Part shown: positions 23,871 to 58,621 of the stretch, one piece after another
Numbering within the stretch: position 1 is the first letter of the stretch
How the letters are laid out: every line of letters starts with the position of its first letter
Assembly: GCA_013152945.1 (NCBI GenBank)
Contig: JAADFL010000107.1
Span: 1 to 60,063, forward strand
Direction of reading: 5' to 3'
Length of the DNA: 60,063 nt
From: Deltaproteobacteria bacterium
GTDB taxonomy: Bacteria > Myxococcota_A > JAADFL01
The notes under the pieces: model-generated
The model's database searches: none
The model's input: only the letters and a program-made list of their open reading frames with translations
Told to the model about the DNA's origin: nothing
Translations under genes and position numbers: made by a program

Positions 23871-24004
23871 CTCTTTCCTCCCTTATTCCAGCCTTTAACT
23901 TTCTTATTCCTCTTTTCCATCCTTTTCAGTCTATTAAATGCCTTGTAACATTTTAACAAGATCCACACAATATTAATTAGCGCTCTTGCCAAAATATCAG
24001 GCTC

Positions 24005-25876
24005 TTATCTATTCTCTCTCTTTTCTTTTTTTCTTTTTCTCTTGTCGGCTATCCTTTTCAATCTCTCTTCTCGTCTTTTCTTTGCCTCTTCTTCCATGCC
24101 TTTCAGGCGTTGCATCTGCTCCGAGCTGGCCTGGACCTTGTTCATCAACTTATAGAATATTCCATCTTTTGCCGGAGTATATTCGGGTTCGGGCATCTTC
24201 AACATCAATCCTTGATGTATTATCTGTAAAATGCTGTTAGCCAATATATAGAGTACGAGTCCGGATGGAAGCATAAACATCATGAAACCAAATACTATTG
24301 GCATCATCCACTGCATCATCTTTGCCTGAATATCATCTCCTGTGGTTGGAGTCATCCTCTGCGAAATTACCATTGCAATAACCAATAATATTGGAAGTAC
24401 ATAATATGGATCGGGCGCTGAAAGATCTTTAATCCATAAGCCCATTGGTTCTTGGTATAACTCTACTGCTGAAAACAATGCCCGCCATAATGCTATGTAC
24501 ACAGGCATTTGAATAAACATTGGAAGGCATCCGCCAAGTGGATTTACTCCTTCCCTTTTCATCAACTCCATCTGCTCACGTTGAAAGGCTTCTTTGTCAT
24601 CTCCCAATTTTTCTTTCAATGCTTTTATCTTGGGTTGTATTTTCTTCATTCTGTTCATGGATCTATACATTTTCTGTGTTATAGGTAAAAGTATTATCTT
24701 AATCACAATTGTCAATAAGATAATAGCGATACCATAGTTTCCAAAAACAGAATAAAAGAATTGCATCAACACCAACATGGGAATTGCAATAAACCAGAAC
24801 CAACCGAAATCTATTGATTTATCGAGACCTGCGTTCACTTTTTTCAACAAGTCTCTGTACTTTGGCCCTGCAAAGATTCTAAATTCGAATGATTTTTCCT
24901 CTCCCGGACCAAGTTTCAATTCAGGAAGTCTAAGTTCGCCCACAACCATCCTGTCATTTTTCAACTTGTAATTTACTATTCCATTGTAACCACCTTCCTT
25001 TGAAATCAAGGCCAGCATAAAGTAGTGCCTGTCTATTCCGATCCACTTGACATCTCCCTGTACCGGGCGGAGTTCTCTTATGTCATCGTCTTTTTGTGCT
25101 TCGATTAATTCATCACCAACAAGAAATTTCGGAGATGCAAGGTCGACCAATTTCCTGCCATCAGAATGTTCGGAACATCCCGAGGCACACCCACCACCGC
25201 CATTCCCTTCAAAATTCCTGAATCCTGAAATCGATATAATCGGTGTGCCCAGGTTTTTAGCACTATTTGAGCTATTTTTGACAACAATATTGTAATTGAA
25301 TACATCTTTTTCCGATCCAACCGAAATTTTTTTACTAACCTCGAGACCATTACCTGAAGACCAAGAAAAATCTATCTCACCCGGGTTAGGTGTCGCTACA
25401 TTGTATTCGCTCAAATAATCCAGTTTTTGTTCACCACCTTCGAGTTTAAAATTTAGTGGATAATCAGCAATATTTCTTCCTTGAACCAATTCCACGGGTT
25501 TGTTTCTAGTATCAAGGTAATTAGAAAGTACATAGCTCTTAAGCCTGCCACCGATCGTGGTGAATTCTATCTTATAATCAGGACCATTCACATCAACTAT
25601 TCTCTCGGTAAGAGTCTTTTTCGAATTAACTTGTTTTTTTTCATCCGGGGTCTTTACATTTTTAACTTGTTTTTTTTCATCCAGACTTTTAACATTTTTT
25701 TTAATAACATTTTTTTTAATAACGTTTTTTTTAATAACGTTATTTTTAATAATATTATTCTTAGTTACTTTGGCTGTTTCTTCCTTTTTATTACCTGAAC
25801 CTGATCCAAAAAGCAGTTCTATGGTGATAAATAGCGCAAAAGTTATCACGAGTATAGATATCCATCTTCTTTCCAT
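24005..25876 (-). CDS. yidC: Membrane protein insertase YidC
   Basis: Inserts and folds inner-membrane proteins, alone or with SecYEG. 623 residues of Gram-negative layout: an N-terminal membrane anchor (about 7-24), a low-complexity Lys/Asn linker (about 30-90) with a repeated VIKKN pentapeptide, a large periplasmic beta-super-sandwich domain, and the conserved five-helix core. The core contains the cytoplasmic MKKIQPKIKALKEKLGDDKE-type loop (MKRIQPKIKALKEK in seen form MKKIQPKIKALKEK), PLGGCLPMFIQMPVYIALW and FMLPSGLVLYILANS. The C-terminal tail is strongly basic (KRKRKKEKR). It lies 7 bases after yidD. Confidence 0.95.
   Translation of the reverse strand: MERRWISILVITFALFITIELLFGSGSGNKKEETAKVTKNNIIKNNVIKKNVIKKNVIKKNVKSLDEKKQVKNVKTPDEKKQVNSKKTLTERIVDVNGPDYKIEFTTIGGRLKSYVLSNYLDTRNKPVELVQGRNIADYPLNFKLEGGEQKLDYLSEYNVATPNPGEIDFSWSSGNGLEVSKKISVGSEKDVFNYNIVVKNSSNSAKNLGTPIISISGFRNFEGNGGGGCASGCSEHSDGRKLVDLASPKFLVGDELIEAQKDDDIRELRPVQGDVKWIGIDRHYFMLALISKEGGYNGIVNYKLKNDRMVVGELRLPELKLGPGEEKSFEFRIFAGPKYRDLLKKVNAGLDKSIDFGWFWFIAIPMLVLMQFFYSVFGNYGIAIILLTIVIKIILLPITQKMYRSMNRMKKIQPKIKALKEKLGDDKEAFQREQMELMKREGVNPLGGCLPMFIQMPVYIALWRALFSAVELYQEPMGLWIKDLSAPDPYYVLPILLVIAMVISQRMTPTTGDDIQAKMMQWMMPIVFGFMMFMLPSGLVLYILANSILQIIHQGLMLKMPEPEYTPAKDGIFYKLMNKVQASSEQMQRLKGMEEEAKKRREERLKRIADKRKRKKEKRENR
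25692..25751. repeat. Four 15-bp tandem repeats inside yidC
   Basis: Four near-identical 15-base units (ACATTTTTTTTAATA and variants) at 25692-25706, 25707-25721, 25722-25736 and 25737-25751. They encode repeated VIKKN pentapeptides in the periplasmic linker after the first membrane helix. Unit-length changes would keep frame. A second repeat with 36-bp spacing (TAACTTG plus T-run, at 25627 and 25663) lies just beside it. Confidence 0.85.
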
Positions 25877-25882
25877 TATAAA

Positions 25883-26158
25883 TCACAAACCTTTCTGAAT
25901 AACATTTTTCCCTCGTTTGAAAGGCACTGGATCATAACCGCCTGCTCCCAATGGATTACACCTCAACACCCTCCATATGGCTAAAACTGCGCCTCTTATC
26001 GCCCCATGAATTAAAATCGCCTCCCTTGCATAGTTCGAGCAAGTCGGGTAAAATCTACACTGCCTTCCAATAAAGGGACTTAAAAAAAACTGATATATAT
26101 CTATAATAAATACCAATACCATCCGTGGCAACAATAACAGCTTCATTAACAATGACAA
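25883..26158 (-). CDS. yidD: Membrane protein insertion efficiency factor YidD
   Basis: A 91-residue YidD/Haemolysin-domain protein thought to help YidC-dependent insertion. Seen: a hydrophobic N-terminal segment, [20 protein letters not shown] with Cys-containing [10 protein letters not shown], then [17 protein letters not shown], all family hallmarks. It starts one base after the rnpA stop and precedes yidC. Confidence 0.93.
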
Positions 26159-26159
26159 A

Positions 26160-26537
26160 TTAGTGTCCTTTTTTTCTACTTGTTAAGAATATTTCTTTCA
26201 ACATTCCTCTCATATTTTTACTTTCCTGCTTTGAAACCGGTCTTTTCACCATTATAATCAGGTCATGCCTCTCAACTACATTGGCGTCATTCCTTCTAAA
26301 GGTTTCCCTAATATTTCTTTTTATCCAGTTTCTTTGTACTGCATTGCCTACTCTTTTCGAAACAGAGATACCCAGTCTGGACTGTTTATCATGTAAATCT
26401 TTATTCATCATCTGTACCAAAATGATAGGTCCATAATATATCCTTGTACCAGCTTTCAGTACTCTCCTATATTCTTTTGATGATGTTAATCTTGAGTTCC
26501 GTGGAAGGCCCTCATTGTTTCTACGGGCATTGCCCAA
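26160..26537 (-). CDS. rnpA: Ribonuclease P protein component
   Basis: Protein subunit that helps RNase P RNA process tRNA 5' ends. 125 residues, strongly basic. The family segment with [20 protein letters not shown] followed by RNIRETFRR is clear. It lies 12 bases after rpmH in the classic rpmH-rnpA-yidD-yidC order. Confidence 0.94.
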
Positions 26538-26549
26538 TTCACCGCACCA

Positions 26550-26702
26550 TTACTTTTTTGTAACCGTTACGCTCAATTGGTATCTTCCTTTTGCCCGCCT
26601 TGCTTTTATTACCTTCCTTCCACCCCTTGTCTTCATTCTGGCTCTGAAACCGTGTACCCTCTTTCTTCTTATTCTACTCGGTTGATATGTCCTCTTACTC
26701 AT
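26550..26702 (-). CDS. rpmH: 50S ribosomal protein L34
   Basis: 50 residues from ATG 26702, with GGAG nine bases upstream; an in-frame codon further upstream is unlikely. It carries the L34 signature [13 protein letters not shown] then [20 protein letters not shown]. It is a few residues longer than the usual 44-46 at the C-terminus ([10 protein letters not shown]). First gene of the leftward operon from the origin. Confidence 0.96.
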
Positions 26703-26762
26703 TGTCTTCTTCTCCAATACATGTAGAAAAAATTCCAGTGAACCTAATTTCAAAGACTAGCA

Positions 26763-26791
26763 AATTTACTTTCCAAGACATCCATTGTCAA
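26763..26791 (-). promoter_or_regulatory. Probable sigma-70 promoter of rpmH
   Basis: On the minus strand a perfect TTGACA (26791-26786) and TAAATT (26768-26763) are spaced by 17 bases, about 60 bases upstream of the L34 start. Confidence 0.55.
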
Positions 26792-26917
26792 GCCATTACT
26801 CTTAATTCTGTGAATAAATTGCAATGTATAACAGGCCGGAGTAAGTCAACGCCACATTTGGGGCCGAAACAGTTCGATCTTCTACCAGGCAGGGCATTTT
26901 TCTTTTTTTTTAATAGG

Positions 26918-26949
26918 TTATCCACAGTTGTTGATATTTCTGTTGATAT
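26918..26949. promoter_or_regulatory. DnaA box cluster upstream of dnaA
   Basis: A perfect TTATCCACA at 26918-26926 is followed by two TGTTGATAT copies (26929-26937, 26941-26949), which are weaker boxes (ATATCAACA) on the other strand, spaced 12 bp apart. This likely serves dnaA autoregulation and/or origin function. Confidence 0.75.
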
Positions 26950-27044
26950 TTATTTCTTATCCTGCAATATTTTTCCTGGATTATTTTTGGTTCTTTTATG
27001 CAGGTACTTTAAGATGGTGGCACGAAAGTTTAGGAGTTCCAAGA

Positions 27045-28358
27045 ATGGATGACCTCTGGAGCCAGGTCTTGAAATATTTGAAGGAAAGGTTATCCCCTTC
27101 GGATTTCAATACATGGATAGTTCCCATAAATCACGTTGACATCAGAGGAGACATAATTGATATATACGTTCCAAACAAGGATTTTGCGAATAGAATACTA
27201 AATAACTTCTATCAAATAATCACAAATGGTCTTTTTTCGGTTGGCGGCAAGAAATTCTATTTGGAAGTTTCTGTTGATGAAAATAATGAAAATGTAAGCG
27301 AGCCTGACCGTACGCTCGATCCTCCACCTTTTTTCAGGGGAATAAAAAGATTCACCTTTTCTACCTTTGTTGTGGGATCAAGCAACCAGTTCGCTCATGC
27401 TGCTTGTTACAATGTAGCAAACTCTCCTGGTGAAAACTATAACCCGCTTTTCATATACGGCGGTGTCGGTCTTGGTAAGACACACCTTCTAAATGCTATC
27501 GGTCATATGATAACCGAAAATCACCCGGACTGGAAAATATTCTACCTTTCTTCAGAACAATTTATGAATGAACTAATACAAGCTCTTCAATTTGAAAAGA
27601 TGATAGACTTTAGGAGGAGATATAGAGAACAGTGTGACGTAATATTAATTGATGACATTCAGTTCATGTCCGGCAAGGATCGTACGCAGGAAGAATTTTT
27701 TCATACTTTCAACGCATTACACCAATCCGGAAAGCAAATAGTTGTTACAAGCGACCTTTTCCCGCAGGATATACCCGAACTTGAAGAAAGATTGAGATCA
27801 AGATTTCAATGGGGACTTATAGCTGATATAAAACCGCCTGAAATGGAAACAAGGGTAGCCATATTAAAAAAGAAAGCTGAAGTAGATAAAATTTTCTTAC
27901 CTGATGATGTTGCAATATACATTGCATTAGAGATAAAATCCAACGTCAGAGAACTTGAAGGTTGTTTAACTCGCTTATTTTCTTATTCTAAAGTCATGAA
28001 CAGTCCAATTACAAAAGACCTTGCCAAGCAAGTTCTGCGTGGCATCATCAAGGATAAACCACAAAAAGTATCAATCGAAAAGATACAATCCTTCGTATGT
28101 TCATATTTTGGCATAACAATTAAAGAACTTTGCTCCAATAGAAGAACAAAACAGCTTGTTTTTCCGAGACAAATAGCAATGTACCTATGCAGAAAAAATA
28201 CATCCGCGTCTTTTCCAGAAATAGGCTCCAAGTTCGGCGGTAAGGATCATACCACTGTAATGTTTGGTGTAAAACGTATCGATAAATCAATAGAATCCGG
28301 CGATAACGAAGTTATTGACGTGATTGACTCAATTGAGTCTTCACTTGGTTTGAAGTAG
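27045..28358 (+). CDS. dnaA: Chromosomal replication initiator DnaA
   Basis: AAA+ initiator that binds DnaA boxes and melts the origin. The start is ATG 27045 (MDDLWSQVLKYLKERLS) with AGGAG upstream, giving 437 residues; open frame upstream encodes a hydrophobic non-DnaA stretch and is not counted. Domain I is at 1-78, domain II is reduced to a short acidic linker (about 79-100), and domain III has Walker A GGVGLGKT (139-146) and Walker B ILIDDIQF. Domain IV carries the DNA-binding signature GGKDHTTVMFGVKRI. It is the first rightward gene, followed by a 248-base AT-rich gap and dnaN. Confidence 0.98.
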   Translation: MDDLWSQVLKYLKERLSPSDFNTWIVPINHVDIRGDIIDIYVPNKDFANRILNNFYQIITNGLFSVGGKKFYLEVSVDENNENVSEPDRTLDPPPFFRGIKRFTFSTFVVGSSNQFAHAACYNVANSPGENYNPLFIYGGVGLGKTHLLNAIGHMITENHPDWKIFYLSSEQFMNELIQALQFEKMIDFRRRYREQCDVILIDDIQFMSGKDRTQEEFFHTFNALHQSGKQIVVTSDLFPQDIPELEERLRSRFQWGLIADIKPPEMETRVAILKKKAEVDKIFLPDDVAIYIALEIKSNVRELEGCLTRLFSYSKVMNSPITKDLAKQVLRGIIKDKPQKVSIEKIQSFVCSYFGITIKELCSNRRTKQLVFPRQIAMYLCRKNTSASFPEIGSKFGGKDHTTVMFGVKRIDKSIESGDNEVIDVIDSIESSLGLK

Positions 28359-28606
28359 TTTTTAAACTGTGGATAACTATATGTTAGTTAGCTTTAAAGA
28401 AAAAAATATATTACTTTCAAAGGCTATAAGAACCATTTTTGAAAAATGTCTTAATCACTTATTAAACAAATTATCAACAGTACATAAATTAATAATTTCA
28501 AGATCTTCATTAACTTTTCAACAAGATCTTATGTACTTATTAATAATGTATTACTGTATATATTTAAGTAATAACAATGTTTTTAAAACCTGAACAGGAG
28601 AAAAAA
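28359..28606. other. oriC: dnaA-dnaN intergenic region, probable oriC core
   Basis: 248 very AT-rich bases without a gene. It holds a perfect DnaA box TGTGGATAA (28368-28376), TTATCAACA (28471-28479), a weaker TTTTCAACA (28515-28523) and two copies of CAAGATCTT (28499-28507 and 28522-28530). An almost pure AT stretch (about 28529-28578) would suit duplex unwinding. Gene orientation switches at rpmH/dnaA, which agrees with an origin here. Confidence 0.75.
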
Positions 28607-29725
28607 ATGGAATTAAAAATTGCGAGAGATGAAATTTTACCACTGGTATCCAAGACACTTGGCATAGTAGAGAAAAAAACTACTATGCCCATTCTTTCCA
28701 ACTTATACCTTGAAGCTACAAATTCAGGGGAAGTCGTTGTCAATGCAACCGACCTTGAAGTTGGAATCTCTGACAAATGTTCAGGTGAAGTCGTTAAACA
28801 GGGTTCTATCACAATTAGAGCCAAAAACTTCTATGATGTATTGAAGTCACTGCCTGATGAACCCATAGTGATATCTTCGGACACAGGAGATTGGATACAT
28901 ATCGAGTGTGGTAAAATAGAGTTCAATCTTGTTGGTCTACCTGTCGATGATTTTCCAAAGTTTCCCGAGATATCAACTATAGACTATATACAATTACCTC
29001 CGGCTGACTTGTCTGCTATGTTTCGAAAAGTATATTTTGCTGTTTCTACAGATGAAACACGTTATAATCTAAATGGTGTGTATATAAGAATAATAGATGG
29101 GAAACTTGTAATGGTTTCTACAGATGGGCATAGGTTATGTAAGATAGAGAATGATATAGAAATTAAAGATATTCCTGAATATCTCGATAAAGGTATAATA
29201 CTTCCAAGGAAAGGAATATTGGAGCTTAATAAGATAATTGAAGAATATAAAGGTGATTCAATAAAGTTCAGTGTTTATGAAAATAATGCGTTTTTCATTA
29301 TAGATCAATTAATATTTGTAATGAGAATTATAGATGGTGATTTTCCGGATTTCCATAAGGTACTTCCTGAAAGTTTTTCCTGCAAGGCAGTTATTGACAG
29401 AGACGTACTTGCACAATCGCTAAAAAGAATTTCAGTACTTTCATATGACAATGCCTGGGGTTTGAGATTGGTTTTTCGAGGTGATGAATTGGAGATACAG
29501 TCAAATAATCCCGATCTTGGTGAAGCAAAGGAGATTGTTTCACTTGGCAGCTATGAAGGGGATGAACTTACCATCGGCTTTAATTCAAAATATTTACTCG
29601 AGGCGATAAACGCGATGGACAATGGTGATATTGATTTAACCTTCACTGACGACCTAAAGCCCGGACTTTTCAAAAATTCAGGGGAAGATAATTACCTTTG
29701 TGTAATAATGCCAATGAGAATTTAA
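28607..29725 (+). CDS. dnaN: DNA polymerase III sliding clamp (beta subunit)
   Basis: Dimeric ring that tethers polymerase III and other partners to DNA. From ATG 28607 (AGGAG seven bases upstream) it is 372 residues with three repeated clamp domains. Recognisable: TMPILSNLYLEA, the STDGHRL segment, and the C-terminal MPMRI that forms part of the peptide-binding pocket. Markedly AT-rich codon use, like dnaA and gyrB. Confidence 0.97.
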   Translation: MELKIARDEILPLVSKTLGIVEKKTTMPILSNLYLEATNSGEVVVNATDLEVGISDKCSGEVVKQGSITIRAKNFYDVLKSLPDEPIVISSDTGDWIHIECGKIEFNLVGLPVDDFPKFPEISTIDYIQLPPADLSAMFRKVYFAVSTDETRYNLNGVYIRIIDGKLVMVSTDGHRLCKIENDIEIKDIPEYLDKGIILPRKGILELNKIIEEYKGDSIKFSVYENNAFFIIDQLIFVMRIIDGDFPDFHKVLPESFSCKAVIDRDVLAQSLKRISVLSYDNAWGLRLVFRGDELEIQSNNPDLGEAKEIVSLGSYEGDELTIGFNSKYLLEAINAMDNGDIDLTFTDDLKPGLFKNSGEDNYLCVIMPMRI

Positions 29726-29764
29726 TGTTATTTTTATTGCTTCAAAAAAATTGTAGAGAAGTAA

Positions 29765-32224
<2,460 letters not shown>

Positions 32225-32241
32225 TTTGGAGATTATGGTTT

Positions 32242-33240
32242 ATGAGGAGTAAAATAATAGCTACAGGAAGGTATATTCCGGAAAGACTGGTTACCAATGA
32301 AGACCTCTCGAACATGTTCGATACGAGTGATGAGTGGATTAAAGACAGAACAGGAATAGAACAAAGATACTATATAAAAGATGAAATGGGTGCCTCGGAT
32401 ATGGCCTTCAATGCATGTGAAAATGTATTCAATGAAGGAATTGTTAAGAGGGAAGATATTGATTTTATTATTTTTGCTACATTGAGCCCGGATCATACGT
32501 TTCCAGGTTCCGGTTGTTTTTTGCAGGGAAAACTTGGATTGGCGGATGTTCCATCAATGGACATACGCAACCAGTGTACCGGTTTCTTGTACAGTTTAAG
32601 AATGGGCGATTTGCTGATCAAGAGCGGTGATTATAAGCGAGTGCTTATCGCAGGGGCTGAAGTTCATTCCACCGGCCTTGATTTTTCAAACAATGGTAGG
32701 GACGTGACTGTTCTTTTCGGTGACGGCGCAGGTGTTGTGGTACTTGGTCCTTGTGAAGATAATGAAGGTGGATTTTTATCATTTGCATTACATTCTGACG
32801 GAACTCACGCAAAGGACTTGTGGCTTGATTGTCCGGGAAGCAGGTACACACCCAGCAGAATAAATAAAACCATGATAGACGAAGGAAGGCATTTCCCTAA
32901 AATGAACGGACGGAGAGTTTTTTCACACGCGGTCAAGAAAATGCCGGAAGTATTGATGGAAGCTCTTGAATCATCGGGGACTGATTTAAAGGAATTGGAT
33001 TTGATTGTACCACATCAAGCAAACAAGAGAATTAACGAGAAATTCGCAGAAATGTTGGGCATTTCTTTCGGGAAGGTGTATAGCAACATCGAGAGGTATG
33101 GAAATACTACAGCAGCATCTATTCCAATTGCATTAGATGAACTTCGAAGACAAGGAAGATTAAAAAAAGGTGACATGATTGGATTGGTGGCTTTCGGCTC
33201 TGGATTCACGTGGGCCGCATCAATAGTCAAGTGGGTATAA
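32242..33240 (+). CDS. Beta-ketoacyl-ACP synthase III (FabH family)
   Basis: Thiolase-fold enzyme condensing an acyl-CoA with malonyl-ACP to start fatty-acid synthesis, or a specialised relative. 332 residues. The catalytic triad is complete: C112 (IRNQCTGFLYSL), H258 (VPHQANKRI) and N288 (GNTTAASIPIAL). Other family segments are SDEWIKDRTGIEQR and FGDGAGVVVL. The start is ATG 32242, TTGGAG ten bases upstream. It lies alone between gyrB and gyrA with no other lipid gene near, so whether it is the housekeeping fabH is open; the symbol is left blank for that reason. Confidence 0.88.
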   Translation: MRSKIIATGRYIPERLVTNEDLSNMFDTSDEWIKDRTGIEQRYYIKDEMGASDMAFNACENVFNEGIVKREDIDFIIFATLSPDHTFPGSGCFLQGKLGLADVPSMDIRNQCTGFLYSLRMGDLLIKSGDYKRVLIAGAEVHSTGLDFSNNGRDVTVLFGDGAGVVVLGPCEDNEGGFLSFALHSDGTHAKDLWLDCPGSRYTPSRINKTMIDEGRHFPKMNGRRVFSHAVKKMPEVLMEALESSGTDLKELDLIVPHQANKRINEKFAEMLGISFGKVYSNIERYGNTTAASIPIALDELRRQGRLKKGDMIGLVAFGSGFTWAASIVKWV

Positions 33241-33290
33241 CATAACGTAATAACTATAGATATTTATTCCAATAAAGTAGGAAATCCATA

Positions 33291-33319
33291 TTGACACACG
33301 CGCGCGCGATCGCTATATT
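33291..33319 (+). promoter_or_regulatory. Strong sigma-70 promoter of gyrA with alternating CG spacer
   Basis: A perfect TTGACA (33291-33296) and TATATT (33314-33319) are spaced exactly 17 bases. The spacer is CACGCGCGCGCGATCGC, an alternating purine-pyrimidine tract of the kind that can adopt Z-DNA under negative supercoiling. The gyrA start is 45 bases beyond the -10. Confidence 0.75.
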
Positions 33320-33336
33320 ACATGCGCGTAAGAAGG

Positions 33337-33356
33337 CCTTTATGAAAAAATAAAGG
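33337..33356 (+). promoter_or_regulatory. Leader hairpin overlapping the gyrA ribosome binding site
   Basis: CCTTTAT (33337-33343) can pair with ATAAAGG (33350-33356), loop GAAAAA. The right arm contains the start of the AAAGGG binding site of gyrA, so the hairpin would hide it. The stem is AT-rich and weak, so any effect would be mild. Confidence 0.35.
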
Positions 33357-33363
33357 GAAAGAT

Positions 33364-35844
33364 ATGGATGGAAGCGAATTAGAAAAAGCAGGAAGAAGGT
33401 ATCCGGTATCAATAGAAGCGGAGATGAAATCTTCGTACATGGATTACGCCATGAGCGTAATAATCGGAAGGGCGCTCCCTGATGTACGTGATGGTCTCAA
33501 GCCTGTGCATAGGCGAATACTGTACTCGATGTATGAACTGGGAAATGAGTGGAACAAGCCATATAAAAAATCGGCCAGAGTGGTCGGAGATGTAATAGGA
33601 AAATACCACCCACACGGAGATGCAGCAGTCTATGATGCGCTTGTAAGAATGGCTCAGGATTTCTCCATGAGGATGCCGCTGGTTGATGGACAGGGTAATT
33701 TCGGATCAATAGACGGCGACCCGCCGGCAGCAATGAGGTACACAGAGGTTCGAATGGCCAAGGTAGCACAGCAATTGCTGGCTGATTTGGCCAAGGAAAC
33801 TGTTGATTTCGTTCCCAACTACGACGGTACACAAAAGGAGCCATTGGTTTTGCCGACCAGGGTTCCTAATTTATTGGTCAACGGTAGTTCAGGTATTGCT
33901 GTTGGAATGGCAACCAATATACCTCCGCATAACCTGGTGGAAGTATGTGACGCAGCAATCATGCTGATAAAGAAACCATCTATTACCTTAGATGAACTAA
34001 TGGAGATAATTCCCGGGCCCGATTTTCCAACCGGGGCCTTCATTTATGGAAGGGCAGGCATAAAGGAGGCCTATACGTCAGGCAGGGGTGTAATTAAACT
34101 TAGGGCCAGAGCATTTATTGAAAAGGAGAAGCATCTAGACAAGAAAAAGATAATAGTTACAGAAATCCCGTTTCAGCAGAATAAGGCGAGACTGATAGAG
34201 AAAATAGCGGAACTCGTTAAAGACAAACGTATCGAAGGAATATCAGATGTAAGAGATGAATCCGACAGGGAAGGCCTAAGGGTGGCTGTCGAGCTGAAGA
34301 GGGATGCTGTTCCGGAAGTAGTATTGAACCAACTTTTCAAGCACACATCCCTGCAGACATCTTTCGGCGTGACAATGCTGGCAATAGTAGGGAAGAGGCC
34401 CAAGGTCATGGGCCTGAAGGAAATGCTCCATGAGTTTGTACAGCACCGCCGGGAGGTGGTGACCAAGCGATGTATATTCGAATTGAGAAAGGCAGAGGAA
34501 AGGGCTCATATACTTGAAGGGTTGAAAATAGCCCTTGAGAATATCGATGAAGTAGTCGCTCTTATAAAGAAGGCGTCAAGCGTTTCAGATGCAAGGGAAA
34601 GCTTGATGCAAAGATTTTCTCTAACAAAGATCCAGTCCCAGGCGATACTGGATATGAAACTCCAAAGACTTACTGCTTTGGAGCAGGATAAGCTAATCAA
34701 TGAATATAACCAGGTACAGGAAGAAATAGCCAAACTAAAGAAAATACTTGCGGATGAAAGGTTGCTCTTCGAAATCATAATCAATGAATTAAAGGAGGTG
34801 AGAGACAAGTTCGGAAACGATCGAAGGAGTGAGATTATCGATGAAGAAGGTGAATTATCCGTAGAGGATCTGATTGCAGAAGAGGAAATGGTGGTAACGG
34901 TCTCCCATCAGGGATATATCAAGAGGAATCCCATCAGCATGTATAGGGCACAAAGGCGCGGGGGAAGGGGAAAGACCGGTATGGCTACAAAATCAGAAGA
35001 TTTTGTAGAGGATCTTTTCATTGCAACTACACACAGTTATATATTGGTATTTACCGATCTCGGACGAGTATATTGGTTGAAGGTTCACGAAATACCCCAG
35101 GCAGGCCGGGCTGCAAAAGGAAAGGCCATAGTAAACCTTGTCAACCTGCAGAAAGGAGAGAATGTATCGGCTATTTTACCTGTAAAGGCATTCGAGGAGG
35201 ACCATTACGTCCTTATGGCAACTGAAAATGGAATAATAAAAAAGACAAAACTTATGGCCTACTCGAATCCCAGGTCTACCGGCATTGTTGCTGCTTTGTT
35301 GGACAAGGGAGACCGCCTGGTCTCTGTTAGATTGACCGATGGATCGCAAGATGTATTCCTGGGCACCATGAAGGGCAAGTCAATACGTTTCAGGGAAGAA
35401 CAGGTCCGTGACACAGGAAGGGCAACCAGGGGAGTTAAAGGCATAGAATTGGAACAAGGAGACAAAGTTGTGGGCATGGGGGTATTTGAACCGGGTTCGG
35501 ATTTAACTATATTGACTGCATGTCGGCGTGGATATGGTAAACGTACGGTAATAAGTGAGTACCCGGTCCAGTCAAGGGCGGGAAAGGGTGTAATAACCAT
35601 CAAAACCACGGAGCGTAACGGCAAGGTCATAGGTTTTCTCAAGGTCATGGAAGAGGACCACATTATGTTCGTTACGAGGTCTGGTGTTGTAATGCGTACG
35701 ATTGCCTCTGATATCTCCAAGATTAGCAGGAATACACAAGGAGTAAGGCTGATAAAACTCGATGAAGATGACGAGCTTGTTGCATTGGCGAGGTTGGCTG
35801 AAAAGGATAATGGTGCCGAAGAGGGTGAGAATGGTAATGACTGA
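33364..35844 (+). CDS. gyrA: DNA gyrase subunit A
   Basis: DNA-cleaving subunit of gyrase. 826 residues. The catalytic tyrosine is Y126 ([10 protein letters not shown]). The quinolone-contact region reads [10 protein letters not shown] (82-91): Ala87 replaces the Ser83 of E. coli, while Asp91 matches Asp87. The C-terminal beta-pinwheel has the GyrA box [10 protein letters not shown], which identifies gyrase rather than ParC. It has its own strong promoter, although fabH and gyrB lie upstream on the same strand. Confidence 0.97.
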
Positions 35845-35889
35845 TATAGATTACTAAAAGGTGTAGGTAAAGGAGCACAATCAGACGAT

Positions 35890-36696
35890 ATGTATGGAAA
35901 ATCAGCATATTTATTATTGCAATTCTTGCTGATATTTTTTTCCTTGGGTAATTCATCTTGTTCCAAGCCTGGAGAAAAGCAACTGGCGCTTGCGTCCTCG
36001 CTCGCTTTCAAGGGTGAATATACAAAGGCAGTACAAGCATACGATGCTGCTTTGAATAAACTGCCGAAGGCGGCTTATTATCAGCGTGTTTCCGCCAACC
36101 TGCGGGCAGGGGAACTTTCAAGATTATTTTTGAAAGATTACAGGCGAGCTATTTCTTATTTCCGCAAGGTTAGGGAATTAGACAAGGGCGAGCTTGGATT
36201 CAAGGCCAGGGTTGCGATTGCCGAAATCATGAGATTCGATCTGGGTGATATAAGAGCGGCGATTGTGGAATACCAAAATCTGGTCAAGGCATATCCCGGA
36301 CATCCGAACCTGGCAAATTACCAGTTGGAGATAAGCCGATGTTACAACAGCATCGGGGACCATCGCCAAGCCAGGGTTGAGGCCGAAGTCGTAAGGAAAA
36401 GGTACAAAGGAACAAGGTTAGAACAACAAGCGGTAATCCTGATCGCCGACAGCCTGTCGCTGGATGGAAACACCAGGGCAGCTATAAAGGAATATGAAGG
36501 TTTTTTAAAAAGATTTCCAGACAGCCGGTATATTGCAGATGTAGCATTTTCACTTGCGAATTGTTATGAAGATCTTGGGGAATCCGATCTGGCCCAAACA
36601 AGATTGGCTGAAATTGCTGCAAAAATCAGGAATCCCAAGATGATTGAAAAAAAGATGCAAAGGATCAAGGCCAGGGCCAGGAATATGGGAAGATGA
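35890..36696 (+). CDS. Tetratricopeptide-repeat protein, probably periplasmic
   Basis: 268 residues. The N-terminal hydrophobic segment ends GNSSC, which could be a lipobox (poor at -3) or a plain signal peptide. The rest is a series of about five to six TPR-like helical hairpins, for example ALASSLAFKGEYTKAVQAYD, RARVEAEVVRKRY-like (written RQARVEAEVVRKRY) and NCYEDLGESDLAQTRL. The pattern is that of BamD/YbgF-type scaffolds that bind other envelope proteins. Partner unknown. It follows gyrA by 45 bases and precedes the F0 genes. Confidence 0.75.
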   Translation: MYGKSAYLLLQFLLIFFSLGNSSCSKPGEKQLALASSLAFKGEYTKAVQAYDAALNKLPKAAYYQRVSANLRAGELSRLFLKDYRRAISYFRKVRELDKGELGFKARVAIAEIMRFDLGDIRAAIVEYQNLVKAYPGHPNLANYQLEISRCYNSIGDHRQARVEAEVVRKRYKGTRLEQQAVILIADSLSLDGNTRAAIKEYEGFLKRFPDSRYIADVAFSLANCYEDLGESDLAQTRLAEIAAKIRNPKMIEKKMQRIKARARNMGR

Positions 36697-36697
36697 T

Positions 36698-36720
36698 ATT
36701 AGGAGAAATTTACTCCTAAT
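36698..36720 (+). repeat. 8-bp inverted repeat after the TPR gene
   Basis: ATTAGGAG (36698-36705) and CTCCTAAT (36713-36720) form a perfect hairpin with a 7-base loop, starting over the end of the TPR gene. No T-run follows, so it is not a classic terminator; it may separate the TPR gene from the atpZ-atpB-atpE transcript. Confidence 0.45.
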
Positions 36721-36745
36721 TACTGATTGACACGTAGGACTCATT

Positions 36746-37015
36746 ATGCTAGCTAGTCCGAACGATGAAGATGGCAGGAATTCCGATTCCCATGTTAATG
36801 AATCAAAAGCACAATACAAGGGCTTGCAATACATTGCCTTGGGTACAGAAATTGCCTTTACCGTTGCAGGGTCTGCGTGGTTAGGATGGTGGCTCGACAA
36901 GAGATTCGGTTCAGGGCCCTGGTTGCTCTTGTCTTTGCTTTTGCTTGGCGGAGCATCTTCAATGTTTATGCTTTTTAAGCTGGCGTCCAAGCTGTCAAAA
37001 GAAGATGATGGCTGA
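36746..37015 (+). CDS. atpZ: AtpZ/AtpI-family F0 assembly protein
   Basis: 89 residues with two membrane helices (about 33-49 and 57-77) joined by the family motif WLGWWLDKRFGSGPW, preceded by a polar N-terminus. Proteins of this family sit before atpB in ATP-synthase loci and are linked to c-ring assembly or Mg2+/Ca2+ supply. No separate longer atpI is present between it and atpB. Confidence 0.8.
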   Translation: MLASPNDEDGRNSDSHVNESKAQYKGLQYIALGTEIAFTVAGSAWLGWWLDKRFGSGPWLLLSLLLLGGASSMFMLFKLASKLSKEDDG

Positions 37016-37089
37016 ATAAAATGATGCACGGCAGAAGGAATAGATGGCGGTTTTTTTCATGACAAATTTCGTAGGGTTGGAGTGAAAAG

Positions 37090-37779
37090 ATGGGGCATCA
37101 TTGGACATGGTACTCCCTTGTTCCGGGACTTGACAAAGTACCGGCCCACGTTACCGGCGCAGCAACGGTTTTAGTGTTACTAACAATAATTTCTTTGGTA
37201 GTACGAAGGAAATATGCGGCTTCGGACGGTACAATTCCAGACCAGGGAATTTCGTTAAGATCAATAGCGGAAGTCAGCATTGAAAAGTTGATCGACCTTA
37301 CCGAGGGTGTTATCGGAAAGGAGGGGAGAGACTTTTTCCCATTTCTGGGGGCACTTTTCATTTATATATTTATATCGAATATGATGGGCTTGATACCGGG
37401 CTTTCTGCCTCCTACCGACAGTCTGAATACAAACGGGGCTTGTGCAATAATAGTTTTCATATATTACAACTACCTGGGCTTTAAGAAAAACGGTGCATCT
37501 TACCTGAAACACTTCACTGGTCCTATTTGGTGGCTGGCGATCTTGATGATACCAATCGAGATAGTAGGGCACCTTGCAAGGCCGTTTTCATTGTCTGTTC
37601 GTCTTTTCGGCAACATAAACGGCGATCACATGGTGCTTTCAATCTTTACAGACCTCACCAAGTTGGTAATACCAGTGGCTTTTTATGCGCTTGGGCTTTT
37701 TGTGGCATTCATTCAAGCCCTGGTGTTTACGCTGTTGAGCATGGTCTATATCAATATTTCAATTAGTCATGAACACTAG
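37090..37779 (+). CDS. atpB: ATP synthase F0 subunit a
   Basis: Ion-channel half of the F0 motor. 229 residues, with five to six membrane helices. The essential arginine lies in RPFSLSVRLFGNINGDHM. The C-terminal helix holds LGLFVAFIQALVFTLLSMVY. The start is ATG 37090 after atpZ. It must work with the F1 and b/b' subunits encoded about 20 kb away on the other replication arm. Confidence 0.95.
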   Translation: MGHHWTWYSLVPGLDKVPAHVTGAATVLVLLTIISLVVRRKYAASDGTIPDQGISLRSIAEVSIEKLIDLTEGVIGKEGRDFFPFLGALFIYIFISNMMGLIPGFLPPTDSLNTNGACAIIVFIYYNYLGFKKNGASYLKHFTGPIWWLAILMIPIEIVGHLARPFSLSVRLFGNINGDHMVLSIFTDLTKLVIPVAFYALGLFVAFIQALVFTLLSMVYINISISHEH

Positions 37780-37802
37780 ACAAGCCGGATCGGGGTAAAG
37801 CG

Positions 37803-37895
37803 GTGGCACAGGATGGTAGAGAGAGAGAAGAGGATGCCGCAACGGCCGTCGATCCTTTTACGTTCTTTTCACTCTCCATGAAAGGAGGAGAATAA
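37803..37895 (+). CDS. Possible 30-codon ORF coupled to atpE
   Basis: A GTG-started frame of 30 codons ends with TAA whose last A is the first base of the atpE ATG (TAATG). A GGGG-containing stretch lies upstream of the GTG. The acidic peptide ([17 protein letters not shown] then [12 protein letters not shown]) resembles nothing I know. It may be a leader allowing translational coupling, or chance. Confidence 0.25.
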
Positions 37896-38224
37896 TGAAT
37901 CGTACGAAGATGTTCTGGGGTTTTCTGTTTGCATTGCTTGTCATGGCATTTTCAGGCGTAGCACTGGCAGGTGAAGGTGGAGCGGCAGCGCTGGAGGTGC
38001 AGACCTGGATAGCTATTTCCGCACCCTTTGGTATTGCAATCGCCGCCTTTGGAGGGGCCTTTGGCCAGGGCCGGGCCGCAAGCGCGGCTTTGGAAGGTAT
38101 TGCGAGGAATCCAGGCGCTGCTTCAAAGATTCAAACACCAATGATTATTGCTCTGGCCCTGATAGAATCTCTCGTTATCTATGCATTTGTAATAGCCATC
38201 ATGTTCACTCTCAAGGTTGGATAA
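37895..38224 (+). CDS. atpE: ATP synthase F0 subunit c
   Basis: Subunit of the rotating membrane ring. 109 residues, longer than the usual 70-90 because of an N-terminal signal-peptide-like segment (1-25, ending VALAG). Two membrane helices follow, joined by the polar loop ARNP. The ion-binding carboxylate is E91 in [11 protein letters not shown]58 in helix 1, S92 and Y96 line up by eye with the sodium ligands Q32, S66 and Y70 of Ilyobacter, while the Thr67 equivalent is Leu. A strong AAAGGAGGAG site precedes ATG 37895. Coupling ion therefore uncertain. Confidence 0.95.
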
Positions 38225-56302: not shown

Positions 56303-58621
56303 TCACGTCCTGGTATGTGCTGTTTTCCCACCCTTGACTGCGGTATCCCTTTTTTTCTTATGCCCGGTTTTTGGGTTATACGAGCGCCTCTTCGGAGGAG
56401 GGTCTCCGAAGCCGCAAACAGGGCATCGCTTGAGTGTCTTACCCCTGGACATCCTGGTCAAGAGGTATGGACTGTTGCAATTTTCGCATGTCTCTTTTTT
56501 AGGGGATTCCCAGGTGGCAAACGTGCATTTCGGGTAGTTCGAACACCCCCAGAACCTGCGGCCACCCTTACTTCTCCGTTCAACAAGGAAGCCGTTGCAT
56601 CCATCCACCGGGCATGAAAAGCCGCTGTTGATTGGCTTCGTATTCCTGCAATTGGGATATGAGCTGCATGCAAGGAACTTTCCGAATCTTCCCTTTTTTA
56701 CGACCATTGGTGAGCCGCATTTTTCACATACTTCATCTGTTGTCTCAGGCTCCACGGCCTGAATCGTACCTGATTCATCCCTTTTGAATTCCTTGGTATT
56801 CTTACATTCAGGGTAACCGGAGCAGGCCAGGAACTTTCCGGCTTTTCCCCAGCGCACCACCATTGGTTTGCCGCATTTCTCGCACACAATGTCGGTTTTT
56901 TCCACTTCCTGCTTCAGGTTTTTCATGTCGGTACGGGCTTTTTCGACCGCCTCCTTGAAGTGGGAATAAAAATCCCGGAGCATTTGCTTCCAGTCGACGG
57001 CTCCCTCCTGCACCTTGTCGAGACGGTCTTCCATGCTGGCGGTAAAGCTGATGTCCATGATTTTAGGAAAGTTTTCGATGAGAAGTCCTGTGACCAGTTC
57101 TCCTAACTCGGTCGGATGGAAGCGGCCCTCTATTTTTTCCACATAACCCTTGTCTTGTATGGTGGACAGGATGGTCGCATATGTGGAAGGCCGGCCGATT
57201 CCCTTTTCTTCGAGTTCCTTTATCAGTGAGCTTTCAAGGTATCTTGGTGGAGGCTGGGTGAATTTTTGTTCTGAGATAATATCCTTGAGAACAAGGACCT
57301 GGCCGACTTCCACCTTCGGCAATCCTGTATTTTCCTGTTCTTCTTCCTCGTCTTTTCCCTCGACATAGAGAGTGGAGAATCCCGGGAAAGCCAGCACGGA
57401 TCCGGTGGCACGAAGTAAAAAGGCTCCACACGAGATATCGATGACTATCTGGTCGTACACGGCAGGCTTCATTTGACTTGCTACGAACCTTTTCCAGATG
57501 AGGGAGTAGAGTCTCATCTCATCCCGGGGCAACTTGCCTTTCAGGCTCTCCGGGCTTGCCGTCACAGATGTCGGGCGAATCGCCTCATGTGCATCCTGGG
57601 CCTTGTTCTTACTCTTGTAACGGACCGGTTTTTCCGGAAGGTATTCTTTACCAAGAGACTGCTCGATGAAAGATCTTGCTTCGGCTATTGCTGATTCAGA
57701 AACTCTTGTCGAGTCGGTCCTCATGTAGGTGATGAGTCCCATTGGTCCTTCACCCCCCACCTCGAGTCCCTCGTAGAGTCGTTGGGCCACACGCATTGTT
57801 CGCTTGGCTGTAAATCTAAGCTTGCGGGCAGCCTCCTGCTGCATCGTGCTGGTGATGAAAGGCGGTGGAGCTCTCCTGGTGCGTTTCTTTTTTTCCACGC
57901 GGGAAATTTTGAATTCACCTTTGCGAAGTGAGGCCACCACAAGGTCGGCCTTTTCCTTGTTTCCCGCTTTGAATTTCTTTCCATTCTCCAAAACGAGTCT
58001 GGCCTTGATTTCAGGTGGATTTGATGCATCGAGAAGAGCTGTTATAGTCCAATATTCTTCTGAAATAAAAGCCTTAATCTCTTCTTCGCGTTGAACCACG
58101 AGCCGCACCGCAACAGATTGCACGCGCCCTGCAGAGAGGCCCTGGCTAACTTTTCTCCAGAGCAGTGGGCTTATTTCGTATCCAACGAGTCTGTCCAGGA
58201 CTCGCCTGGCTTGTTGTGAATCATACTTGTTTTGGTCCAATGAGCCGGGTTTGCTGATAGCCTCCCGCACTGCCTTTGGGGTTACCTCGTGAAACAGTAC
58301 ACGGAAAACTTTGGAGTTTACCTTGGCGACTTCCTGGGCGATATGCCATGCAATGGCTTCACCCTCTCTGTCCGGGTCAGGGGCGAGGAGGACCTGGTCC
58401 GCCTTGGATGCCTCTTTTCTGATTTCGTCGAGGATTTTTTTCTTGCCGCGTATGACAACGTACTCCGGTTCGAAATCATTGTCTATATCCACACCCAGTC
58501 TTTTCCTGGGAAGGTCTTTGACGTGTCCTATTGAAGCCTTGACCTGGTGCCCCTTGCCCAAGTACTTGGATATGGTACGTGCCTTTGCCGGCGATTCGAC
58601 GACTATTAGAGATCTCGACAT
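56303..58621 (-). CDS. topA: DNA topoisomerase I
   Basis: Type IA topoisomerase that relaxes negative supercoils. 772 residues with GGAGG before ATG 58621. TOPRIM domain at the N-terminus (SLIVVESPAKARTISKYLG, APDPDREGEAIAWH) and the active-site tyrosine in GLITYMRTDSTRVS. The C-terminus has four Cys4 zinc-finger modules: CEKCGKPM with CSGYPECKN, CEKCGSPM with CSSYPNCRN, CPVDGC with CSNYPKC, and CENCNSPY with CPVCGFG. It ends with a basic tail. Confidence 0.97.
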   Translation of the reverse strand: MSRSLIVVESPAKARTISKYLGKGHQVKASIGHVKDLPRKRLGVDIDNDFEPEYVVIRGKKKILDEIRKEASKADQVLLAPDPDREGEAIAWHIAQEVAKVNSKVFRVLFHEVTPKAVREAISKPGSLDQNKYDSQQARRVLDRLVGYEISPLLWRKVSQGLSAGRVQSVAVRLVVQREEEIKAFISEEYWTITALLDASNPPEIKARLVLENGKKFKAGNKEKADLVVASLRKGEFKISRVEKKKRTRRAPPPFITSTMQQEAARKLRFTAKRTMRVAQRLYEGLEVGGEGPMGLITYMRTDSTRVSESAIAEARSFIEQSLGKEYLPEKPVRYKSKNKAQDAHEAIRPTSVTASPESLKGKLPRDEMRLYSLIWKRFVASQMKPAVYDQIVIDISCGAFLLRATGSVLAFPGFSTLYVEGKDEEEEQENTGLPKVEVGQVLVLKDIISEQKFTQPPPRYLESSLIKELEEKGIGRPSTYATILSTIQDKGYVEKIEGRFHPTELGELVTGLLIENFPKIMDISFTASMEDRLDKVQEGAVDWKQMLRDFYSHFKEAVEKARTDMKNLKQEVEKTDIVCEKCGKPMVVRWGKAGKFLACSGYPECKNTKEFKRDESGTIQAVEPETTDEVCEKCGSPMVVKKGRFGKFLACSSYPNCRNTKPINSGFSCPVDGCNGFLVERRSKGGRRFWGCSNYPKCTFATWESPKKETCENCNSPYLLTRMSRGKTLKRCPVCGFGDPPPKRRSYNPKTGHKKKRDTAVKGGKTAHTRT

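Follow-up and report, generated by a model that had tools for sequence, protein, structure and literature searches.

DNA gyrase is the enzyme that underwinds bacterial DNA. The gyrA promoter described here lies in a window of 60,063 bp, the whole stretch of DNA that was analysed, and raises the question of whether a promoter could gauge DNA twist from its own sequence. The original prediction took it for a possible built-in supercoiling sensor, on the grounds that alternating CG and CA between its two hexamers could flip to left-handed Z-DNA. The features of the locus are listed below.

29777–32224, + strand: gyrB, DNA gyrase subunit B (Pfam), upstream of gyrA with a fabH-like gene in between
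32242–33240, + strand: fabH-like beta-ketoacyl-ACP synthase III gene between gyrB and gyrA (Pfam, NCBIfam)
33291–33296, + strand: -35 hexamer TTGACA of the gyrA promoter
33294–33308, unstranded: Z-prone alternating purine/pyrimidine run ACACACGCGCGCGCG, 15 bp, with a (CG)5 core at 33299–33308
33297–33313, + strand: 17-bp spacer CACGCGCGCGCGATCGC between -35 and -10, with the alternation broken by its last five bases, ATCGC
33314–33319, + strand: -10 hexamer TATATT
33319–33330, unstranded: second alternating run TACATGCGCGTA, 12 bp, over the discriminator and predicted start
33325–33327, + strand: predicted transcription start, 6–8 bp after the -10, placed from the position of the -10
33337–33356, + strand: predicted leader RNA hairpin CCUUUAU-GAAAAA-AUAAAGG, 7-bp stem, with the AAGG ribosome site in its 3' arm
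33364–35844, + strand: gyrA, DNA gyrase subunit A, 826 aa (Pfam; NCBIfam gyrA equivalog)

Judged by its sequence and setting, the gyrA promoter is real. It sits in the 123-bp gap behind the fabH-like gene, and TTGACA-17-TATATT (33291–33319) carries 11 of the 12 hexamer bases of the sigma-70-type consensus at a spacing within 17 ± 1 bp, confirming the predicted near-consensus promoter. The arrangement has no other exact match in the window, and its score is among the two best of the sigma-70 type in 24000–38000. Its assignment to gyrA also held, by position (the gene starts 44 bp beyond the -10) and by the Pfam and NCBIfam identification of the gene. A leader peptide frame (ATG at 33322 to TGA at 33345) was set aside because it begins before the predicted transcription start. 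In the surrounding DNA, no recF-like open reading frame was called between dnaN and gyrB (29725–33364). The GC skew turns from negative to positive at about 28 kb, next to dnaA and dnaN (26928–29725), so the replication origin is probably near 28 kb. The type I topoisomerase gene topA (56303–58621, - strand) shares the window with gyrA and gyrB, and since the next upstream open reading frame ends about 20 bp away, it has no evident separate promoter.

The spacer had been described as alternating CG/CA throughout, which proved too generous: strict alternation is confined to 33294–33308, a run that begins inside the -35 and spans 12 of the 17 spacer base pairs. The 12-bp run directly after the -10, in turn, had been overlooked. 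The two runs share the same purine/pyrimidine phase by position and flank the gyrA -10; they are two of the six alternating runs of at least 12 bp in the window, the 15-bp run being the longest. The 4.84-Mb genome contains a single copy of the (CG)5 core of this run, CGCGCGCGCG, against about 0.98 expected under a dinucleotide model; what is odd about this core is thus its place rather than its existence. CGCGCGCG occurs at seven genome sites; of four others with their context examined, one is intergenic and three fall within long open frames.

Z propensity was calculated over 459,063 bp of the source genome (the window plus 20 stretches), using the dinucleotide energies of the Z-Hunt table. 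Within this sample the tract at 33294–33308 had the lowest flip threshold (sigma* 0.0378, the next separate site being at 0.0408), and 1 of 162 upstream regions reached its Z level. Being CG-rich and alternating, with a low modelled flip threshold, the tract is by sequence a candidate Z-DNA-forming element. In a 5-kb competition model that treats one run and a single transition at a time, the probability of Z-DNA at the gyrA promoter was 0.007 at sigma -0.030, 0.095 at -0.035, 0.64 at -0.040 and 0.95 at -0.045. The modelled midpoint near -0.039 comes before strand melting, which takes over elsewhere at -0.055 and beyond. It also lies beyond the values of -0.023 to -0.032 that PMC8422995 uses for E. 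coli cells, so transcription-driven or unusually strong underwinding may be needed to flip the gyrA tract. According to the model, this short tract is close to the minimum that might be able to flip in cells.

Long alternating CG/CA/TG tracts were noticed upstream of gyrA in relatives, and then at two gyrB regions among the supposed controls. For the comparative test, we compared the 200 bp upstream of gyrA, gyrB and other genes (open reading frames of at least 300 codons) in genomes of the phylum, the nearest of which share only their phylum with the source. The gyrA set was drawn from 282 phylum genomes, 194 of them with a match at the cut-off; it was taken from the matches listed, mostly in listing order, and also includes genomes in which a tract had been seen beforehand. 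For gyrB the same procedure was followed. Upstream regions below 60 bases, same-gene duplicates from two loci and best matches below 47% identity were left out of the counts, the 47 gyrA genes with gyrB coding sequence directly upstream were kept as a separate class, and the control set was cleared of gyrA's own regions and of gyrB genes.

The results showed that calculated Z-prone tracts are enriched upstream of the gyrase genes of this phylum and nearly absent where gyrA directly follows gyrB. At sigma* ≤ 0.040, a Z-prone cut-off chosen, like the other thresholds, after seeing the data, tracts were found at 10/84 gyrA genes with their own upstream region (the 84 include one ParC-like paralogue, L148, which has no tract), at 10/106 gyrB genes (counting L211 and L254, the matches that prompted the gyrB test), at 1/47 gyrA genes directly behind gyrB and at 4/752 other genes. 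At sigma* ≤ 0.038 the corresponding counts were 8/84, 4/106, 0/47 and 0/752, and by dinucleotide shuffling at p ≤ 0.01 they were 10/84, 8/106, 0/47 and 2/752 (shuffle-based Fisher tests, 3.5e-9 for gyrA and 1.6e-6 for gyrB). The excess did not depend on the energies: after removal of the ParC-like gene, alternating runs of at least 14 bp were present in 15/189 gyrase and 2/752 control regions (Fisher 2e-9), and runs of that length with at least four CG steps in 14/189 gyrase regions against 0/752 others. GC-matched draws gave a mean of 1.7 against the 20 observed, and permuting labels within genomes (n=124) gave 5.3 expected against 17 observed, with p at the floor of 5e-6 and unchanged without the source genome. 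Earlier, smaller versions of the test pointed in the same direction. As a further control, topA upstream regions carried a tract in 1 of 30 cases (30 loci from 109 genomes with a match).

This comparative enrichment at gyrase genes is a new result, and it suggests a built-in gauge of DNA twist. The proposed sensor thereby gains indirect support; what did not generalise is the spacer position as such, and most gyrase genes have no tract. Matches at sigma* 0.040 span 15 genera and 18/141 genomes, and since the gyrase genes read in the other 123/141 have no such tract, it is not required. Where both gyrA and gyrB were read, the two carried tracts together in 2/48 genomes at 0.040, no excess over chance (Fisher 0.33), and the comparison of gyrA outside the phylum was not significant (2/61 against 0/205). 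In genus g10, a sister species had lost strict alternation at a conserved site (L015, L016); in g59, gyrA was aligned for four species, one of them without the tract. The gyrA upstream region L184 (genome G267) packs four alternating CG blocks into about 50 bp immediately ahead of a predicted TTGCAA-17-TAAAAG promoter. Strong alternating tracts were also seen in two non-gyrase regions of the earlier control set, L235 (upstream of 3414) and L240 (upstream of 1345–1860, a gidB-like gene).

We further located the tracts relative to predicted promoters. Of 24 gyrase tracts at sigma* ≤ 0.0415, only 3 fell within predicted spacers, while 7 preceded the -35 and 14 followed the -10. Tracts were 6–8 bp above the predicted -35 in gyrB of G029, G076, G142 and G228 and in gyrA of G228, and that of G114 gyrA lay against the predicted -35; other tracts were at or after the -10. 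Few gyrase tracts are thus in predicted spacers (3/24), but the (CG)5-N5-TATnnT register recurs and is nearly confined to gyrase genes. TnG-N5-(CG)5-N5-TATnnT was found at 7 sites in 282 genomes and its reversed control once; 5 of the 7 are at gyrase genes (source gyrA, gyrA of G041, and gyrB of G067, G068 and G069) and two at other genes, with the pattern itself defined from three of the sites, and G067 and G068 new but of the same genus as G069. In G067, G068 and G069 the (CG)5 was kept beside unlike -35 hexamers (TGGTAT, TGGAAA, TAGATT). Of two further species in that genus, the fourth carries (CG)4 ahead of TATGT-TACGGT and the fifth lacks such a tract. Relaxing the spacer pattern to (CG)4 and allowing one mismatch was uninformative, giving roughly as many matches as the reversed control; exact matching gave at least 4 sites across 45 selected genomes, including 2 at gyrA.

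Because the tracts had been picked by Z score, plain CGCGCG cores were also examined. Those at gyrase genes were longer, with an alternating extension (A/T included) of at least 4 in 23/78, against 9/117 control cores, while palindromes, palindrome length and homopurine runs showed no enrichment at gyrase regions; together these results argue for alternation rather than a fixed site. The tracts vary in length, sequence and position, for example CGCGCGTGCGCGCGTG, CACGCGCGTACACGCGTG and CGCGCGCATGCGTGCGCGCACG. Even within one genus, two gyrB promoters of the form TTTACA-17-TAnnAT carry unlike but wholly alternating tracts at the same place (14 bp in L298, 22 bp in L294). A k-mer search for a fixed motif returned CG repeats and gyrB coding words, with no clear motif.

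These data bear on a possible but rather unlikely alternative, in which the tracts are binding sites for a protein (some regulator, or gyrase) that recognises them as CG-rich B-form DNA or as Z-DNA and does the repressing or activating. It would account for the T-CGCG...CG-A flanks common to many tracts, for the recurrence of one register and for the k-mer GCGCGCGA, enriched about as much as CGCGCGCG, and PMC10341724 reports Z-DNA binding by human topoisomerase II alpha. The tracts are nevertheless so unlike one another that alternation is mainly what they share, and palindrome length, as noted, is not enriched. We consider it improbable that supercoiling sensitivity arises without Z-DNA, from the stiffness, twist or melting cost of a CG-rich spacer and a G+C-rich discriminator in B form. 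Discriminator and spacer effects on the supercoiling response are documented (PMC8422995, PMC4770202), but B-form effects do not account for tracts that lie above the -35 or within the leader, or for the enrichment of alternating runs in particular. According to PMC8422995, relaxation-activated gyrA-gyrB is also beyond what the discriminator model can explain by itself. Functionless slippage or drift of simple repeats, with the gyrase match a chance cluster or shared descent, would suit the single expected copy of CGCGCGCGCG, the many gyrase genes without tracts and the fact that some matches share a genus, but is very improbable in view of the within-genome permutation, the 15 genera, the GC-matched draws and the near absence of tracts at gyrA behind gyrB and at topA.

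The best reading, which we hold with no more than middling confidence, is a B–Z switch that turns gyrase transcription down once DNA becomes overly underwound. When the domain becomes too negatively supercoiled, the CA/CG tract of the spacer would flip to left-handed DNA, perhaps together with the second tract after the -10. The spacer flip would unwind the spacer by more than two turns and misplace the two hexamers, B–Z junctions would arise at the -35 and near the -10, local underwinding would be removed, and RNA polymerase would be unable to use the promoter. As gyrase activity falls and the DNA relaxes, the tract would return to B form, leaving the near-consensus promoter free to make gyrase. 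The same logic could operate from other promoter-near positions at a minority of the phylum's gyrA and gyrB genes: a tract just upstream of the promoter would absorb underwinding, as in the system of Sheridan and co-workers, and one downstream could block polymerase, as in that of Peck and Wang, so that from each of the three positions a flip would reduce gyrase expression in excessively underwound DNA. More tentatively, sequence-encoded left-handed DNA at the gyrase promoters of the phylum may be a protein-free supercoiling gauge that closes the homeostatic loop of gyrase, the switch being the spacer in the source species and, in the same register, for gyrase genes in another family. The sequence, the enrichment at gyrase genes, the scarcity of tracts where gyrA directly follows gyrB and the common register are observations; Z-DNA formation in cells, its effect on transcription and the sign of that effect are inferred.

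Both precedents are engineered or synthetic. Sheridan, Benham and Hatfield (1999) reportedly inhibited a supercoiling-activated promoter by a distant B–Z transition on an engineered plasmid; there, as proposed here, the transition competes for underwinding and lowers output, whereas the present tract is a native one, found within or next to a gyrase promoter. Peck and Wang (1985) are said to have shown that alternating CG, as a longer synthetic insert, blocks transcription under negative supercoiling, which fits the tracts downstream of the -10, whereas the source gyrA tract is in the spacer. We know of no Z-prone tract among the determinants of E. coli gyrA and gyrB. Transcription of these two genes rises on relaxation (Menzel and Gellert, cited in PMC4770202), and the proposal made here would concern the same genes with the same sign, more gyrase on relaxation. 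The same source describes a twist-sensitive spacer in mycobacterial topoisomerase I promoters, again a topoisomerase gene with supercoiling-sensing spacer geometry, but with an unusual spacer length, the opposite sign and no Z-DNA. Competition with nearby structural transitions is named as one possibility for gyrA-gyrB in PMC8422995, and the native gyrase promoters described here seem to contain a transition of this type. In E. coli, calculated Z-prone sites are depleted within 250 bp of gene starts (PMC3343103), a trend opposite to the excess seen here at gyrase genes; in the genomes studied, the upstream regions of other genes seldom contain Z-prone DNA. Our literature search, mainly of openly accessible papers, listed no paper on Z-DNA at bacterial gyrase promoters; the tracts allow a direct reporter test of a regulatory role of Z-DNA in bacteria.

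The leader of gyrA was also predicted to fold over its ribosome binding site, and as a fold this was upheld. The hairpin at 33337–33356 has a calculated energy of -5.7 kcal/mol, matched by 0/200 shuffles, and the leader at 33326–33366 one of -7.6 kcal/mol, matched by 3/200; with AAGG in the 3' arm of the 7-bp stem, the ribosome site of gyrA would be covered by the predicted hairpin. An Rfam search of 26000–37000 gave no family match. Elsewhere in the source genome, TTGACAATTTAGAAATGGTATCATATAGT occurs in identical form on contigs C20, C74, C93, C109 and C161, mostly at contig ends, and probably marks the terminus of a mobile element present in several copies.
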